This document shows, one piece after another, positions 1-54,642 of a stretch of 64,000 nt of DNA. The stretch covers positions 930,001 to 994,000 of the forward strand of contig NZ_CP119802.1 of NCBI RefSeq assembly GCF_029338355.1, in the 5' to 3' direction. Origin of the DNA: Halosegnis marinus. Lineage in GTDB: Archaea > Halobacteriota > Halobacteria > Halobacteriales > Haloarculaceae. Position 1 is the first letter of the stretch; each line of letters begins with the position of its first letter. Below the pieces are notes generated by a model. It did not search any database, was not told where the DNA came from, and saw only the letters and a list, made by a program, of their open reading frames with translations. Position numbers and translations under genes: made by a program.

Positions 1-12
1 CGAACCCCGACC

Positions 13-945
13 GTGACCGACCGACCCGACACGCTCGACCCCGACCTCGCGGCCGTCGTGGAGGCGTTCGAGGCCTCGGGCGTCCCCGAGTGGCACACCC
101 TCGACATCGAGAGCGCCCGCCGGCTGGAGGACGACCTGTTCGGCGCCGACCGGACGACCCCGGTCGCGTACACCCGCGACGTCGCCGTCGAGGGACCGAA
201 CGGTCCCGTGTCGGTGCGGGCCGTTCGACCGGAAGCGGCGGGGGAGTTGCCCGTCGTCGTCTTCTACCACGGGGGGCTGTGGGCGCTCGGCACCCTCGAC
301 TCTGTGGAGGACATCTGCCGGGAACTGGCCGACCGCGTCCCCGCGGTGGTGCTCGCCGCCGACTACCGTCTCGCGCCCGAACACCCGTTCCCCGCGGGGC
401 TGGACGACTGCGTCGCCGCGTACGAGTGGGCGCGCGAGCACGCCGACGCGTTCGGCGGCGACACCGACCGGGTGAGCGTCGCGGGGACGAGCGCGGGCGG
501 CAACCTCGCCGCCGGGGTCGCGCGCCGCTGCCGGGACGGCGGCCTCCCCGCGCCCGAGCGGCAGGCGCTCCTCTACCCGATGGTCGACGACGACTTCGAC
601 CGGCCCTCGTACCGCGAGAACGCCGACGGGCCGCTCCTCACGCGCGACGCGGTCGAACACTTCTGGGGCGAGTACGTCCGCTCGCCCGTGGACCGCGCGA
701 ACCCTTACGTCGCGCCGCTGCGGGGCGACGCCTCGGGGCTCGCGCCCGCGACCGTCGTCACGGCCGGCTTCGACCCGCTGCGCGATGAGGGGACCGCCTA
801 CGCCGAGGCGCTCGCGGGGGCTGGGGTCGCGGTCGACCACCGCCACTACCCGTCGATGTGCCACGGCTTCCTCTCCCTGACCGACGAGGTGGCCGTCGCC
901 GACGGGGCGATGGCCGACCTCGCGGCGGACCTCGGCGGCGAGTAG
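13..945 (+). CDS. alpha/beta hydrolase, HSL-type esterase/lipase
   Basis: A 310-residue cytoplasmic carboxylesterase-like protein of the hormone-sensitive-lipase branch. The oxyanion-hole motif HGG is at residues 86-88. The nucleophile elbow GTSAGG places the catalytic Ser at 160, and the likely Asp and His are near 254 (GFDPLRD) and 284 (CHGF). Length and domain cover are complete for the family. The start is a GTG 12 bases into the window, so its promoter lies outside and a longer start cannot be excluded. The substrate is unknown; a short-chain acyl ester is typical of the family. No operon partner is evident; the next gene begins about 200 bases downstream. Confidence 0.85.
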   Translation: MTDRPDTLDPDLAAVVEAFEASGVPEWHTLDIESARRLEDDLFGADRTTPVAYTRDVAVEGPNGPVSVRAVRPEAAGELPVVVFYHGGLWALGTLDSVEDICRELADRVPAVVLAADYRLAPEHPFPAGLDDCVAAYEWAREHADAFGGDTDRVSVAGTSAGGNLAAGVARRCRDGGLPAPERQALLYPMVDDDFDRPSYRENADGPLLTRDAVEHFWGEYVRSPVDRANPYVAPLRGDASGLAPATVVTAGFDPLRDEGTAYAEALAGAGVAVDHRHYPSMCHGFLSLTDEVAVADGAMADLAADLGGE

Positions 946-1143
946 TCGCGCGGACCCGAAACGCTCCCCTCGACCCCGTGACGCCGCCGAGCGACCGTGT
1001 TCGGCAACGAACGGGCCACTCCCGCCCCCGCACTCGTGTTCCGCCGTCCGCCGCCGGGGCCGTTTTCGTATCCCCACATACGGTTTACCGCTCGGCGACG
1101 GCGCTACGCGGCCCTTTTGCGTCTCCGGCCTGTTAGCCGTCCT

Positions 1144-2049
1144 ATGGTCCAGAACGTCGCTCCGCTGATGGCGGAGCTGGAGTCCGAGGACTTCTATCTG
1201 CTCTCCGGGCTCGAACAGGGGATGCGCTTCTCGCGGTGGGTCGCCCGGGGGAAGCTCTCGGAGTTCTCCCGGCTCGACGACGAGGAGGTGTCCCACCGGC
1301 TCGACCGCTGTGAGCGCCGGGGGCTGATCGAGCGCAAGACCATCCAGTACACCGGCTTCCGGCTGACGTTCGAGGGGTACGACGCGCTCGCGCTGCGCAC
1401 CTTCTCCGAGCGCGACAGCATCGAGGGCGTCGGCGCGCCGCTGGGCGTCGGCAAGGAGTCCGACGTGTACGAGGCGCGGTCGTACAAGCCGCTCGCGCTG
1501 AAGTTCCACCGCGAGGGGTACACGAACTTCCGCGAGGTGAAACGCGAGCGCGAGTACACCGCCGACCGGAACCACATCTCGTGGTTCTACACCGCGCGCA
1601 AGGCCGCCGAACGCGAGTACGAGGCCCTGCGGACGGTGTACCCGCAGGTGTCGGTCCCCCGGCCCGTGGACCACAACCGCCACGGCGTCGTGATGGAGAA
1701 ACTGGAGGGCGTGGAGCTGTCGAAGGCCGCGCTCGACCCCGAGCAGGCCGTCGGCGTCCTCGACCTGGTGCTCGACGAGGTGGCCGAGGCGTACGCGCAG
1801 GGGTACGTCCACGCCGACATGTCCGAGTACAACGTCTTCGTCGCCAGCGACGGCGTCACCGTCTTCGACTGGCCGCAGGCCGTCCCCGTGGACCACGAGA
1901 ACGCCGACGAGTTCCTCGAACGCGACTGCGGGAACGTCGTGAGCTACTTCGCCCGGAAATACCCCTCCGAGACGCCCGATATCGACGTTTCGGCGCTCGC
2001 CGACGCCGTTCGCGCCGGGGAGTTCGACGGCGTCCGCGCGCTGGCGTAA
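1144..2049 (+). CDS. rio2: RIO2-type serine/threonine protein kinase
   Basis: A 301-residue atypical kinase. In archaea and eukaryotes Rio2 acts in maturation of the small ribosomal subunit. The first ~90 residues form the winged-helix domain typical of Rio2. The kinase domain follows, with glycine-rich loop GVGKESDVYEA, ATP-binding Lys in LALKFHREG, catalytic loop HADMSEYN and metal-binding motif in FDWPQ. An upstream in-frame start would add 49 arginine-rich residues unlike the family. ATG 1144 is preferred because a T-rich box at about 1112-1120 sits about 27 nt upstream, as for other leaderless genes here. Ribosomal protein L15e lies close downstream on the same strand, which fits a translation role. 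Confidence 0.95.
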   Translation: MVQNVAPLMAELESEDFYLLSGLEQGMRFSRWVARGKLSEFSRLDDEEVSHRLDRCERRGLIERKTIQYTGFRLTFEGYDALALRTFSERDSIEGVGAPLGVGKESDVYEARSYKPLALKFHREGYTNFREVKREREYTADRNHISWFYTARKAAEREYEALRTVYPQVSVPRPVDHNRHGVVMEKLEGVELSKAALDPEQAVGVLDLVLDEVAEAYAQGYVHADMSEYNVFVASDGVTVFDWPQAVPVDHENADEFLERDCGNVVSYFARKYPSETPDIDVSALADAVRAGEFDGVRALA

Positions 2050-2109
2050 ACCGCCCGTTGCGATACGAAATCCCGACACCGCTTTGCCATCCCGCCCCCA
2101 GCCCCGAGC

Positions 2110-2406
2110 GTGTACCTCGTCACCTTTCGGCTGCGCCCGGGCGAGTACGACGACGAGTTCCGGGAACTGAACGCGGCCGTCGAGCGCGCCGCGGAGACCA
2201 CGCCCGGCTACGCGGGCCGGCGCGTGTGGGAGTCGCCCGACGGCGCGGAGACGCTGGTGGTCTATCGCTGGGAGACCCTGGAGGCGCTGGCCGCCTTCGC
2301 CGCCGACGAGGACCACCGCGAGGCGAAGCGTCGCTGGGCGGAGTGGTACGAGGAGTACGAGGTGACCGTCGCAGAGGTGGTGGACACGTACGGGAACGGG
2401 AGGTGA
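2110..2406 (+). CDS. ABM-type antibiotic biosynthesis monooxygenase domain protein
   Basis: A 98-residue single-domain protein of the dimeric alpha/beta-barrel (ABM) fold: beta-strand YLVTFRLRPG, helix, GYAGRRVWESPDG, then LVVYRWETLEALAAF and a C-terminal helix with HREAKRRW. Family members include quinol-oxidising and haem-degrading monooxygenases, but many are uncharacterised and small size prevents an exact call. GTG 2110 lies about 26 nt after a TATA-like CTTTGCC at 2082-2088, so the mRNA is probably leaderless. It is 60 bases downstream of rio2 with no sign of functional linkage. Confidence 0.7.
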   Translation: MYLVTFRLRPGEYDDEFRELNAAVERAAETTPGYAGRRVWESPDGAETLVVYRWETLEALAAFAADEDHREAKRRWAEWYEEYEVTVAEVVDTYGNGR

Positions 2407-2546
2407 GATTCGACGCCCTTTTGCCCGCGAACGGGGAAGTGAGTCCAAGCACGTCGGCTCGCGGGCCCCGACGGGCACCTGCTACGGCAGGACGGGATGT
2501 GACACGGCGGCCGTGTTGAACCACGCAACGCCCGCGGAGACAACAA

Positions 2547-3137
2547 ATGGCACGAAGCTTCTACTCGCACATCGCGGAGGCCTGGCAGTCCCCGAAGGAG
2601 GGGAAACTGGCCGAACTCCAGTGGCAGCGACAGCAGGAATGGCGAAAGCAGGGCGCTATCGAGCGCGTCGAGCGACCGACCCGACTCGACCGGGCGCGCT
2701 CGCTCGGCTACAAGGCGAAGCAGGGCGTCGTCGTCGCCCGCGTCGCCGTCCGCAAGGGGAGCGCGCGCAAGCAGCGCTTCAAGGCGGGCCGCCGCTCGAA
2801 GCGGCAGGGTGTGAACAAGATCACCCGCCGCAAGTCCATCCAGCGCATCGCCGAGGAGCGGGCCTCCCGGAAGTTCCGCAACCTCCGCACGCTGAACAGC
2901 TACTGGGTCGGCGAGGACGGCTCGCAGAAGTGGTTCGAGGTCATCCTGCTCGACCCGGAGCACGGCGCCATCCAGTCCGACGACGACCTGAACTGGATCT
3001 GTGACGACAGCCAGCGCGGCCGCGCGTTCCGCGGCAAGACCAGCGCGGGCCAGCAGGGCCGCGGGCTGACGACGCGCGGCACCGGCACGGAACACACCCG
3101 CCCCTCCATCCGCTCGAACAACGGGCGCGGCAAGTAA
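2547..3137 (+). CDS. rpl15e: 50S ribosomal protein L15e
   Basis: A 196-residue large-subunit ribosomal protein of the archaeal/eukaryotic L15e family, full length. The N-terminus [13 protein letters not shown] and the basic block around residues 55-100 ([18 protein letters not shown], then [19 protein letters not shown]) are diagnostic. The C-terminus is rich in Arg/Gly/Ser and ends SNNGRGK. The protein is strongly basic, unlike the acidic proteome around it, as expected for rRNA binding. It starts at ATG 2547 about 140 bases after the ABM gene and appears monocistronic or cotranscribed with the SUI1 gene 49 bases downstream. Confidence 0.98.
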
Positions 3138-27640: not shown

Positions 27641-27791
27641 TTCGTGAGCGGCGGTGCTGCGGTCTGGGAGCAGTGGGCGTGTTTCGTGAGAGAGCGGCGA
27701 GAGCGAGCGACCGACTCCGCCGAAATCGGGTCGAATCGGTGCCCTACATGCCGGAACTGATTGGTCGCAAAACGGGCGGTAGAAGGACGAG
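27641..27791. other. non-coding spacer before the tandem repeat
   Basis: About 150 bases between the secreted-protein stop and the first 74-bp repeat. I see no gene, hairpin or promoter that I can support. Confidence 0.5.
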
Positions 27792-28161
27792 CCCGACGGG
27801 AGCGAGCGGAGCCGGAGGCTCCGCGAGCTACGGCGGGCGAGTGACGAGCGAAGCGAGGAAGCGAGCCCGACGGGAGCGAGCGGAGCCGGAGGCTCCGCGA
27901 GCTACGGCGGGCGAGTGACGAGCGAAGCGAGGAAGCGAGCCCGACGGGAGCGAGCGGAGCCGGAGGCTCCGCGAGCTACGGCGGGCGAGTGACGAGCGAA
28001 GCGAGGAAGCGAGCCCGACGGGAGCGAGCGGAGCCGGAGGCTCCGCGAGCTACGGCGGGCGAGTGACGAGCGAAGCGAGGAAGCGAGCCCGACGGGAGCG
28101 AGCGGAGCCGGAGGCTCCGCGAGCTACGGCGGGCGAGTGACGAGCGAAGCGAGGAAGCGAG
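27792..28161. repeat. five exact 74-bp tandem repeats at the 3' end of tRNA-Arg
   Basis: Units begin at 27792, 27866, 27940, 28014 and 28088; a sixth start at 28162 runs into the tRNA gene. All copies read as identical. Each contains an 8-bp-stem hairpin (27806-27824 in copy 1, GCGGAGCC-GGA-GGCTCCGC). Each also repeats the last 14 bases of the tRNA gene plus flanking bases, and on the minus strand CCGTAGCTC, a match to the tRNA's 5' region. 74 is not a multiple of three, so reading frames shift from copy to copy and it is not coding. No spacers, hence not CRISPR. Confidence 0.9.
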
Positions 28162-28230
28162 CCCGACGGGATTTGAACCCGCGGCATCCTGGTCCGGAAC
28201 CAGGTACTCTGTCCACTGAGCTACGGGCCC
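28158..28230 (-). tRNA. tRNA-Arg (anticodon CCG)
   Basis: 73 nt on the minus strand. The acceptor stem GGGCCCG pairs with CGGGCTC with one G-U pair. The D-arm contains TAGCTCAGTGGACAGAGT, the anticodon arm is CCTGG-TTCCGGA-CCAGG (anticodon CCG, reads CGG), and the T-arm is GCGGG-TTCAAAT-CCCGT. Discriminator G; CCA not encoded. Its 3' end is duplicated in the adjoining tandem repeats. Confidence 0.97.
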
Positions 28231-50958: not shown

Positions 50959-51030
50959 GGGCGAGTAGATCAGCGGCAGATCGCTTCCTTCGCAAGGAAG
51001 AGGCCCGGGGTTCAAATCCCCGCTCGTCCA
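50959..51030 (+). tRNA. tRNA-Ala (anticodon CGC)
   Basis: 72 nt. The acceptor GGGCGAG pairs with CTCGTCC, with one G-U pair. The D-arm contains TAGATCAGCGGCAGA, the anticodon arm is CTTCC-TTCGCAA-GGAAG (anticodon CGC, reads GCG), and the T-arm is CCGGGG-TTCAAAT-CCCCG. Discriminator A; no encoded CCA. Confidence 0.97.
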
Positions 51031-51789: not shown

Positions 51790-52292
51790 GCGAGGTCGGG
51801 AACGCGGTGGACCTCGATGTCCACGGGGCGGCGTTCGCCCTCGATGTCGGCGACCATACCGGCGACGACCGTCTCGGACTCGCGGGCGACGACCGGGGCG
51901 AGGCGGTCCACGAGCGCGTCGAGCGGGAGCAGCCGCGTCACCCGCCCGCCGCGCATCGACTCGGGGTCGAACTCGATCCGCAGCCGTAGCTCCGTGGCCT
52001 CGCCGTCCTCCAGCGGGTCGAGGAGCCACGACCCGGTCGCGCGCACCCCGTCGGTGGAGCGCCAGTCGATGCGCTCGTTCTCGACGAGGTCCGTCACCCG
52101 CTGTTCGGCGGTGTAGGAGAGCTTCCACCACGAGACGGTGATGCGGTAGTCGGTCCCGGGCCCGCCGTCGCCGTACTGGCGCACGGCGTCCACATGGTCC
52201 GAGTACACCTCCGTGCCGGAGAAGTCGCGGATGTACGCGAACACCTCGGCCGGCGGCGCGTGCACGACGGTCGAGGCCTCGACGGCGTCCAT
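51786..52292 (-). CDS. SRPBCC-family protein (polyketide cyclase/START-like)
   Basis: A 168-residue helix-grip-fold protein: DAVEASTVVHAPPAEVFAYI, FSGTEVYSDHVDAVRQYG, then WKLSYTAEQRVTDLVENERI and GSWLLDPLEDGEATELRLRI. Such proteins bind hydrophobic ligands in a cavity and may act as cyclases or lipid carriers. ATG 52292 is 26 nt from an ATATTAGG box on this strand. Convergent with the oxidase-like gene, sharing stop bases. Confidence 0.85.
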   Translation of the reverse strand: MDAVEASTVVHAPPAEVFAYIRDFSGTEVYSDHVDAVRQYGDGGPGTDYRITVSWWKLSYTAEQRVTDLVENERIDWRSTDGVRATGSWLLDPLEDGEATELRLRIEFDPESMRGGRVTRLLPLDALVDRLAPVVARESETVVAGMVADIEGERRPVDIEVHRVPDLA

Positions 52293-52370
52293 ACGCGAGG
52301 GAGGGGCGCCGACCTAATATGTTCGGCGTCAGGTTCGTCCTTCGAACGTCCATCCTCTCGTCTGCATCCG

Positions 52371-52835
52371 ATGACCGCAGCGACCCCACGCGCCGCGACC
52401 CTCGCCCGGGAACTCCGCGACCGTCTCGCCGCCGCGCGGCCGATGGCCGCCGGCGGGCTGGCGACCCTGCTCGCGGTGAACCTCGCGGCCGGCGGGAGCG
52501 TCCACGGGGCGATACGCCCCGTCGAGTACGCCCTGCTCGCCGTGTTCCTCGCCGACCTCGGGCTGGACGCGCTCGTGGAGGGGCTCTCCCGCCCGCGGCT
52601 GGCGGAGGCGGCGGTGGTCGTCCCGTACGCGGCGCTGGTCGTCGGGGCGGTCGTCGGCCGGTGGCTCGGCTGCGGGCTCCCGCCCGCCCTTCGTCCCCTC
52701 GCCGGGACGCTGGAGTGGCTCCACGGCGCGACGGCCGTCTGCCGTGAACTGGTCCCCCTGGAGGTCGTCGCCGGCGCGGGCGTCCTCACCGAACTGTCGC
52801 TGTCGGTCGTCGAGGAGGTGGAGTTCGAGGCCTAG
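52371..52835 (+). CDS. unrecognised membrane protein, 154 aa
   Basis: A protein with an amphipathic N-terminus (TAATPRAATLARELRDRLAA), then helices at about residues 25-45, 52-70, 78-100 and a hydrophobic C-terminal stretch ending SVVEEVEFEA. I recognise no family. The start is ATG 52371; upstream in-frame sequence overlaps the divergent gene. Its TAG shares CTAG (52832-52835) with the stop of the convergent ABC permease. Confidence 0.6.
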   Translation: MTAATPRAATLARELRDRLAAARPMAAGGLATLLAVNLAAGGSVHGAIRPVEYALLAVFLADLGLDALVEGLSRPRLAEAAVVVPYAALVVGAVVGRWLGCGLPPALRPLAGTLEWLHGATAVCRELVPLEVVAGAGVLTELSLSVVEEVEFEA

Positions 52836-53959
52836 CCCCGCAGCGCCTCGACCGGGTGGAGGTTCGCCGCCTTCCACGCCGGGTAGAGCCCGGAGACGAG
52901 CGCGACCGCGACCCCGAAGCCGAACGCGAGGACGAGATACGGGACGTTCGACGGGTCGAGCACGACGGCGAGCGTCACCTCCGAGAAGTAGTAGAGCCCC
53001 CAGACGGCGACGAGCGACAGCGCCAGCCCGACCAGCCCCCCGGCGACCCCGAGCAGGCCGGCCTCCACGACGAGCGTCCGGAGCACGTCGCCCTTCTGGA
53101 CGCCGACGGCCCGCAGGACGCCGATCTCGCCGCGCCGCTCGTTCGTGCTCATCAGCATCACGTTGAAGATGGCGACGCCGGCGACGACGAGCGACAGCCC
53201 CGCGAGCGAGAGCAGGAACGTGTTGAGCAGGCCGAAGAACTCGGAGATGGTGTCCACGATGGAGGAGAGTTCGAACACCGACACCCGCTGTTCGCGGGCG
53301 TTGACCCGCTCGCGTATCTCGGCGGCCGCCGCCGAGGCGGCCTCGCGCCCGTTCGCCTGAATCACGACCTGCGACGGCTCCGTGTCGGCGAACTCCGCGG
53401 GCGGGAGGACGACGGCGCGGTCGGGGCTGACCGCGGAGATACCCTCCGCCTCGGCGAGGACGGCGACCACCCGGTAGCGGTTCCCCTCTATCTCGATGGC
53501 GCTTCCCACCCTCAGTCCGAGCGCGTCCGCGACGCCGCTGCCGACGACCGCGCCGCTCCTGAGCCGCGGCGGCACCGTCCCCTCGGCGGCGTCGAACAGC
53601 GCGTCGGGGTTCTCGGTGCCGTACAGCTGTGCCGCGGTGCTCGCGCCGTTCCCCCGAACGAGCGCCCCGCCCGTGATGAGCGGGACGACCTCGCCGCGGC
53701 CCTCCGCCGCCCGTCGGATGGTCGCGAGGTCGCGCTCGGTGAACGACTCGACGCCCGCGTCGGCGGCGGGCGACACCGTGACCTGGTTGCCGATGCCGCC
53801 GAACGAGTCCGTCGCGGACAGCTGGAGGACGTTGCCGAACACGCCGAGAGTGGCGATGGCGAGCACGCCGATGACGATGCCGAGCGCCGCCAACACGGTA
53901 CGAACGCGGTTGCGGTTGAGGTTGCGGACCGCCAGCCGGACCGCCGGCAGTCGGCTCAC
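52832..53959 (-). CDS. MacB/FtsX-type ABC transporter permease
   Basis: A 375-residue permease. It has an N-terminal helix (RTVLAALGIVIGVLAIATL), a large periplasmic-type extracellular domain (about 45-245, MacB_PCD) and three C-terminal helices with the FtsX signature LMSTNERRGEIGVLRAVGVQ. Type VII ABC systems of this kind use mechanical motion to export lipoproteins or peptides, or to signal through the envelope. Overlaps the ATPase gene upstream as ATGA. The C-terminal PAWKAANLHPVEALRG is the usual family ending. Confidence 0.92.
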   Translation of the reverse strand: MSRLPAVRLAVRNLNRNRVRTVLAALGIVIGVLAIATLGVFGNVLQLSATDSFGGIGNQVTVSPAADAGVESFTERDLATIRRAAEGRGEVVPLITGGALVRGNGASTAAQLYGTENPDALFDAAEGTVPPRLRSGAVVGSGVADALGLRVGSAIEIEGNRYRVVAVLAEAEGISAVSPDRAVVLPPAEFADTEPSQVVIQANGREAASAAAAEIRERVNAREQRVSVFELSSIVDTISEFFGLLNTFLLSLAGLSLVVAGVAIFNVMLMSTNERRGEIGVLRAVGVQKGDVLRTLVVEAGLLGVAGGLVGLALSLVAVWGLYYFSEVTLAVVLDPSNVPYLVLAFGFGVAVALVSGLYPAWKAANLHPVEALRG

Positions 53960-54642
53960 CGCGCCACCTCCTCCTCCTCGCGGGAGAGGTGCCCGTCCAC
54001 CAGCCGCACGGTCCGGTCGGCGTAGTCCGCGACGAGCGGGTCGTGGGTGACGGTGACGAGCGAGACGCCCCGCTCCGTGATGCGGTCGAACTCCGCGAGC
54101 ACCTGCTCGCCCGTCTCGCGGTCGAGGTTCCCGGTCGGTTCGTCGGCCAGTACGACCGAGGGGCCGTTGACGAGCGACCGGGCGATAGCGACGCGCTGTT
54201 TCTGTCCGCCCGACAGCTCGTCGGGCGTGTGGTCCAGCCGGTCGCCGAGCCCCACGCGCGAGAGCAGGTCCGCGGCCCGCTCGTCGGCGTCCGGGTCGTC
54301 GTGGAAGACGGTGGGGAGCGTGACGTTCTCCAGGGCCGTCAGCGACGGGATGAGGAAGAAGCTCTGGAAGACGAAGCCGACGTGTTCCTTCCGGGCGCGG
54401 GTGCGCTCGGGGTCGGTCATCGTCGTCGCGTCACGGCCGTTCACGAGGACCGTCCCGCGGGTGGGCACGTCGAGCAGGCCGAGCGTGTTGAGCATCGTGG
54501 ACTTGCCCGACCCCGAGGGGCCGACCACGGAGACGAACTCCCCGGGCTCGACCCGGAAGTCGACGTCGGCGAGCGCCGTCACGACCTCGCCGCCCCCGTC
54601 GTACTCCTTGACGACGCCGCGCAGTTCCAGCGGCGCGGTCAT
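53956..54642 (-). CDS. MacB/LolD-type ABC transporter ATP-binding protein
   Basis: A 228-residue ATPase: Walker A GPSGSGKST, signature LSGGQKQRVAIARSL, Walker B VVLADEPTGNLD and a switch His in VTVTHDPLVAD. TGNLD is characteristic of the LolD/MacB subfamily, matching the FtsX-type permease next to it. Its start overlaps the upstream CARDB-like gene stop by 4 bases and its stop overlaps the permease start, so three coupled genes form one transcript. Confidence 0.95.
   Translation of the reverse strand: MTAPLELRGVVKEYDGGGEVVTALADVDFRVEPGEFVSVVGPSGSGKSTMLNTLGLLDVPTRGTVLVNGRDATTMTDPERTRARKEHVGFVFQSFFLIPSLTALENVTLPTVFHDDPDADERAADLLSRVGLGDRLDHTPDELSGGQKQRVAIARSLVNGPSVVLADEPTGNLDRETGEQVLAEFDRITERGVSLVTVTHDPLVADYADRTVRLVDGHLSREEEEVAR

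Follow-up and report, generated by a model that had tools for sequence, protein, structure and literature searches.

In the window, the 64-kb stretch of DNA analyzed here, the gene for tRNA-Arg(CCG) is followed by a tandem array, which lies downstream of the tRNA on the tRNA's own (minus) strand. Tandem Repeats Finder reported the array at 27788-28171 with period 74, 5.2 copies, 100% matches, 0% indels and a score of 768, the highest of its 16 rows for the window. An exact scan located six copies of the 14-mer TCCCGTCGGGCTCG, one in the tRNA gene and one closing each of five units. An earlier note on this DNA had described five exact 74-bp units directly 3' of the tRNA gene, each containing the last 14 tRNA bases. 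Indeed, the exact scan placed five such units at 27788-28157 and confirmed the 14 bases in each; the recent tandem expansion tied to this tRNA gene that the note had proposed is likewise supported. The features are as follows:

28158-28230, minus strand: tRNA-Arg(CCG), the host gene, 73 nt (Rfam RF00005, 65.2 bits; ARAGORN, whose call is one base longer than that of Rfam)
28158-28171, minus strand: last 14 bases of tRNA-Arg(CCG)
28084-28157, minus strand: unit 1, whole (exact scan)
28136-28157, minus strand: spacer of unit 1
28128-28135, minus strand: inverted partial copy of the tRNA 3' end in unit 1
28094-28127, minus strand: hairpin core of unit 1, GTAGCTCGCGGAGCC-TCC-GGCTCCGCTCGCTCCC
28084-28097, minus strand: direct 14-base copy in unit 1
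28010-28083, minus strand: unit 2, identical; 14-base copy at 28010-28023 (Tandem Repeats Finder, exact scan)
27936-28009, minus strand: unit 3, identical; 14-base copy at 27936-27949 (Tandem Repeats Finder, exact scan)
27862-27935, minus strand: unit 4, identical; 14-base copy at 27862-27875 (Tandem Repeats Finder, exact scan)
27788-27861, minus strand: unit 5, identical; 14-base copy at 27788-27801, followed by ordinary flank (Tandem Repeats Finder, exact scan)

On the tRNA strand, a unit runs from the spacer CTTCCTCGCTTCGCTCGTCACT through the left arm CGCCCGCC, which is mostly complementary to the tRNA 3' end, and GTAGCTC to an 8-bp stem with the loop TCC, and then through TCGCTCC to the end CCGTCGGGCTCG, which is part of the 14-base copy of the tRNA 3' end. 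By eye, none of the three overlapping ORFs (40 aa or longer) spans the array as a repeat protein, and the period of 74 is not a multiple of 3; a reading of the repeat region as a small basic protein thus fails. At the array locus, the tRNA alone matched Rfam at gathering score. Elsewhere in the 2.8-Mb genome, the 74-mer had just two weaker matches, beside tRNA-Ala(GGC) and tRNA-Arg(CCT). At another place in the window, 2478-2527 (plus strand), Rfam identified an eL15 ribosomal protein leader of Euryarchaeota (RF03144, 43.9 bits).

Related units behind haloarchaeal tRNA genes

The last 16 bases of all 44 tRNA genes found with Rfam in this genome were compared with 300 nt on each side at a cut-off of at least 14/16. 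Of the 44 genes, 11 have a copy of their own 3' end downstream, none has one upstream (best 11/16), and none has an inverted downstream copy at this cut-off. In the T-tract and folding tests, a further locus, L046 (12/16), was included among the units on the basis of its anatomy, giving 12/44 there. The units end 74-164 nt behind the tRNA, and two classes of downstream region stand out: type A, to which the window's units belong, and the longer type B, in which an inverted T arm is followed by T arm and acceptor end. At L040 (G000:C1:1040297, tRNA-Arg TCT) and L056 (G000:C1:76273, tRNA-Arg CCT), a type B unit comes first behind the tRNA and a type A unit second, both closed by a tRNA-end copy. 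At L099, 62-130 nt behind tRNA-Arg(CCT), a 23-bp repeat occurs three times, each time with the tRNA's last bases (GCCACGTCCG) and without the hairpin core. The window's other tRNA, tRNA-Ala(CGC) at 50959-51030 (plus strand), has no downstream end copy (best 10/16).

The first approximately 54 kb of the chromosome contig (G000:C1) are repeated at its end with small indels, as in an untrimmed circular long-read contig; this extent was deduced from matching end stretches (1-3000 with 2593309-2596309, and 2645546-2647546 with about 52246-54270; 99.97% and 98.6% over the tested stretches). Because of this redundancy, tRNA-Leu(TAG) is counted twice among the 44 tRNA genes.

With a cut-off of at least 13/16, downstream copies were found at 9 of 30 tRNAs in three other haloarchaea, the sample being the best-scoring tRNAs and thus a subset of all, at 1 of 3 tRNAs in one further genome of the order, and at none of 24 tRNAs in seven genomes labelled only as the same phylum; upstream copies were found at none of the 57 sampled tRNAs. 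A set of 29 tRNA-Arg loci, drawn from as many genomes, contained 15 with a downstream copy and none with an upstream copy, a figure biased high because the loci were drawn by an array-containing query (one locus had a flank of 44 nt only). Tandem repeats in general were not enriched behind tRNAs (9/166 downstream versus 12/166 upstream), so the tRNA-end units alone are special.

The type A core pattern was present in 27 of 96 genomes of the family, with 38 matches compared to 3 for the reversed control pattern. At 30 type A loci that were read, a same-strand tRNA lay at most 300 nt upstream in 25 and about 320 nt upstream in two more, while three had none. A stricter core pattern retrieved 36 stretches from the GTDB r220 collection (84,980 species), 34 of them in haloarchaeal records. 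According to the earlier note, a unit found widely at non-tRNA sites would be a generic repeat; in GTDB r220, however, 34 of 40 core matches were located within 600 nt downstream of a same-strand tRNA. The six matches without tRNA comprised two bacterial ones, L127 (non-palindromic), L133, L151 and L152, and at L133 a tRNA shows up once introns are allowed. The core had no matches in IMG/VR. The core opens with GTAG, although most such cores were selected by a GTAG pattern; as most units were retrieved by the core pattern, invariance of the pattern columns is no evidence.

Two genomes of the window's genus have matching flanks at tRNA-Arg(CCG), but one of them carries exactly one 75-bp unit more than the other, the difference starting at the repeat. 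They thus show an empty and a filled site, that is, the gain or loss of one unit. Tandem expansions were also found behind tRNA-Arg(CCT) of Natronococcus amylolyticus (77 bp, 2.1 copies, 88%) and of Natronobiforma (162 bp, 1.9 copies, 99%), and the Arg(CCG) array is the longest and most uniform of the expansions examined. We conclude that haloarchaea have a family of hairpin units at tRNA 3' ends and that the array is one such unit expanded in tandem. In open-licence papers, we found no account of tRNA-matched hairpin units in haloarchaea.

Arms, spacers and stems

The arms of the units follow the host tRNA. For the 48 type A units that have a host tRNA, agreement of the right arm averaged 8.65/10 with the last 10 bases of the host and 5.37 with those of other isoacceptors, and agreement of the left arm averaged 8.17/10 with the complement of the host's last 10 bases and 5.05 with that of other isoacceptors; L108, which has a wrongly trimmed tRNA end, was kept and lowers these averages. 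When the tRNA ends were permuted within 28 Arg(CCT) units, values as high were reached in 3 of 10,000 permutations for the right arm and in 0 of 10,000 for the left arm. In a sign test without L108, 14 left arms were nearer to the tRNA, 5 nearer to the hairpin partner and 28 equally near to both, so the left arm is not the closer match to its partner. A recurring mismatch in the left arm (CGGCCG) is retained.

Spacer likeness had a mean score of 21.5 for the same genus and same tRNA (n = 34), 14.2 for the same genus and different tRNAs (n = 60), 12.1 for different genera and the same tRNA (n = 383) and 9.6 when neither was shared (n = 648), the pairs not being independent. Hence, spacer and core can be near-identical behind different tRNA genes of a genus, with arms that differ and are matched to each tRNA. 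Many genera share the core with its internal loops, a conservation partly built in by the search patterns. L201 and L208 were found without core patterns, yet have a similar core.

The stems covary strongly. In an alignment of 36 of the 48 units, changes on both sides were found in 16 of 22 pairs (in 106 cells, a value reached by 0 of 500 shuffles). The 12 excluded units were near-duplicates, one containing an N, and three (L110, L115 and the second unit of L146) whose right arm is damaged and whose inclusion would lower the pairing figure. Furthermore, G-U occupied 4 of approximately 712 paired unit cells but 23 of 429 in the acceptor and T stems of the 36 host tRNAs (Fisher p = 3.7e-7), a comparison between different helices of related sequences. 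The sequence C-GNA-G forms unusually stable DNA mini-hairpins. Of 36 distinct cores, 28 carry a GNA triloop on one of their strands, compared to 48 of 196 other hairpins (p = 1.8e-9), these 36 being distinct combinations of core and tRNA and a different set from the alignment; 22 of the loops were on the strand opposite the tRNA and 6 on the tRNA strand. The predicted DNA fold was -22.1 kcal/mol for the strand opposite the tRNA (z = -3.42; 0/200 shuffles) and -18.4 kcal/mol for the tRNA strand (z = -2.42; 4/200 shuffles). The RNA fold of the hairpin had a z value of -3.20.

If tRNA and unit were cotranscribed, the acceptor stem is predicted to be kept in 1 of 12 combinations of a tRNA with its own unit, in 72 of 132 with the unit of another tRNA and in 46 of 120 with a foreign plain flank. 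It was kept in 18 of 32 genes without units and in 4 of 29 type A loci. This predicted competition with tRNA folding argues against a simple helpful trailer, though a regulatory switch is conceivable.

Possible origins of the units

The strong covariation almost without G-U, together with the GNA tips, points to hairpin copying at the DNA level rather than to selection on RNA. According to the part of PMC8794818 considered here, template switching in DNA replication can create and maintain hairpins and yields double substitutions without wobble intermediates. We infer that the units live at the DNA level, and we tentatively favor, at somewhat short of even confidence, a model in which they arise, acquire their tailored arms and multiply through hairpin template switching combined with slippage between the 14-bp direct repeats. 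Next to a strongly transcribed tRNA gene, single-stranded DNA would fold into hairpins, and the polymerase would switch template there, writing inverted copies of the tRNA end and mending the two arms of the stem in a single step. Whole units would then be duplicated or deleted when the 14-bp direct repeats, one at the tRNA end and one at the unit end, slip or recombine unequally, and in this genome the duplication step would have run to five identical copies. Gene conversion may spread spacer and core among the tRNA genes of a genome; haloarchaea are polyploid and undergo gene conversion. A selected function for the units is not required, although they may have one.

The model is favored by the exact units bounded by 14-bp direct repeats, the one-unit difference between two genomes, the covariation, the rarity of G-U, the GNA loops and the host-matched arms. 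Several observations count against it. Core and internal loops are conserved across genera, while pure mutation would let unpaired bases drift; the CGGCCG mismatch is retained, while hairpin repair should remove it; and the sign test did not place the left arm nearer to its partner. Moreover, since spacer and core are common to different tRNA genes within a genus beyond expectation, a copying step is needed which the model merely names. The conserved core and the spread between tRNA genes are its weak points, and would be better explained by a dedicated recombinase.

In that alternative, which we regard as possible but rather unlikely, such a recombinase moves hairpin cassettes, the tRNA 3' end is the attachment site, and each cassette ends in a new copy of the site, leading to integron-like accumulation. 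It is consistent with unit types in varying order, each closed by a tRNA-end copy (e.g., L107 and L118), with the precise gain or loss of a unit, and with spacers alike at different tRNAs of a genus with rematched arms. SNJ2-type attachment sites also comprise about 13 bp at the tRNA 3' end, as described in the part of PMC8371274 considered. However, the arms could match their hosts only with a tRNA-specific donor or some form of templating, and the core was not found in IMG/VR. Furthermore, this genome has no match to PF01797 (IS200-like Y1 transposase), and across the 96 genomes an IS200-like transposase was present in 18 of 27 with the core and 43 of 69 without it (hand count), showing no association. 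HUH/RAYT transposition was therefore rejected as a requirement. All integrase matches in this genome were either on contig 2 or no closer than about 29 kb to a tRNA gene, and none was found in the fetched neighborhoods, a weak negative based on eight ORF queries from two stretches of this genome. The serial recombination at an attachment-type site that the earlier note had considered may have taken place, but no integrase was found near tRNAs here or in the fetched neighborhoods (limited query set). In a broader version, haloarchaeal tRNA 3' ends would be active sites at which hairpin DNA cassettes land or are copied; the cassettes would pass from one tRNA gene to another and have both arms recut to the new host, building integron-like, gene-free arrays through a putative recombinase or hairpin-primed copying, with the present array as a recently amplified case; we consider this version doubtful.

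A role at the RNA level, with units transcribed as tRNA trailers that act as terminator, processing signal, small RNA or tRNA-folding switch, is also unlikely. Every counted tRNA-linked unit is downstream on the same strand, the covariation is strong, and a matched unit competes with its tRNA in silico, all of which would suit such a role. However, G-U pairs are nearly absent, the tips are DNA-type GNA loops found more often opposite the tRNA strand, 32 of the 44 tRNA genes here are without units, and competition with tRNA folding looks harmful unless regulated. As to a terminator in particular, T-tract distances, censored in most genes, did not differ, and this candidate was dropped.

Remnants of integrated viruses or plasmids are a very improbable source. 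Integration does leave 3' tRNA fragments in archaea, according to the parts of PMC9897764 and PMC3119063 considered, but the units are short (approximately 70-170 bp), structured and recurrent, and their inverted arm is not predicted by integration. No integrase is nearby, and the features of an integrated-element scar (attL/attR) are absent, with neither integrase nor kilobase-scale cargo between the tRNA and the 3' copy. Among the matches listed (20 of 29 and 20 of 22 records), none from a virus or plasmid reached the unit part; plasmid and phage matches covered the tRNA part only (query 1-83 at most), and with no match in IMG/VR, viral or plasmid carriage was rejected.

Finally, amplified, internally deleted tRNA copies, as suggested by the earlier note, or an assembly error are hardly tenable and already largely ruled out. 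The 14 tRNA bases per unit and the 9-mer CCGTAGCTC common to tRNA and unit had favored deleted copies; CCGTAGCTC, however, is not a piece of the tRNA 5' end but consists of inverted tRNA 3' bases followed by the hairpin core GTAGYTCGC, and the identical core recurs behind tRNA-Gly, whose 5' ends presumably lack this element, and behind several Arg tRNAs, so this reading was dropped. The units hold the inverted tRNA end and no 5' acceptor strand, and belong to a hairpin family with its own core that occurs singly behind other tRNAs and in relatives. An assembly error is unlikely, since single units and other tandem units exist in other genomes and the terminal redundancy of approximately 54 kb is typical of untrimmed long-read contigs.

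Comparison with known systems

The family points to an undescribed way of copying and rebuilding tRNA ends. A haloarchaeal class of units with direct and inverted copies of the end of each tRNA would provide a natural record of the duplication, repair or protection of tRNA ends, and would make hairpin template switching in archaea accessible to genetic tests. Since the covariation of the units is almost free of G-U pairs, they also illustrate that stem covariation alone is no proof of a functional RNA.

The 178-bp repeats of E. coli tyrT (rtT RNA/Tpr) are arranged in tandem downstream of a tRNA, each with a short 3' terminal piece of it, encode a small basic protein and give rise to a processed small RNA. 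The array units share the tandem arrangement, the position and the 3' terminal tRNA bases. In contrast, they are half as long, form a hairpin with an inverted tRNA arm and encode no credible protein, and the haloarchaeal units occur behind many tRNAs with arms matched to each.

Small DNA hairpins are also known from REP/RAYT systems, with GTAG at the 5' foot, and from integron attC sites, which form serial arrays. The units are likewise small DNA hairpins and, as attC sites, can stand in series; GTAG opens their core as well, but most of these cores were selected by a GTAG pattern. Unlike REP/RAYT, there is no Y1 transposase in this genome and the arms follow the tRNA, and unlike integron cassette arrays, there are no cassette genes, as the 74-bp units hold no gene. 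In MITEs the terminal inverted repeats are fixed and independent of the target, whereas the arms of the haloarchaeal units follow the host tRNA. The 3' ends of tRNAs are classic docking sites of mobile DNA. The repeats resemble SNJ2-type attachment sites (about 13 bp at the tRNA 3' end; part of PMC8371274), but no element or integrase lies between the repeats here.

In Methanopyrus kandleri, a palindrome with the short fixed motif CGTTA N9 TAACG is located approximately 10 bp downstream of many tRNA genes (PMC5217627, in the part considered). It is similarly archaeal and placed behind many tRNA genes, but the haloarchaeal arms copy the end of the individual tRNA and the units stack in tandem. 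As in the hairpins made by template switching (PMC8794818, likewise in part), the stems show double substitutions without G-U intermediates. Those hairpins are inside RNA genes, whereas the haloarchaeal units are derived from tRNA, are intergenic, and undergo gain, loss and tandem expansion.
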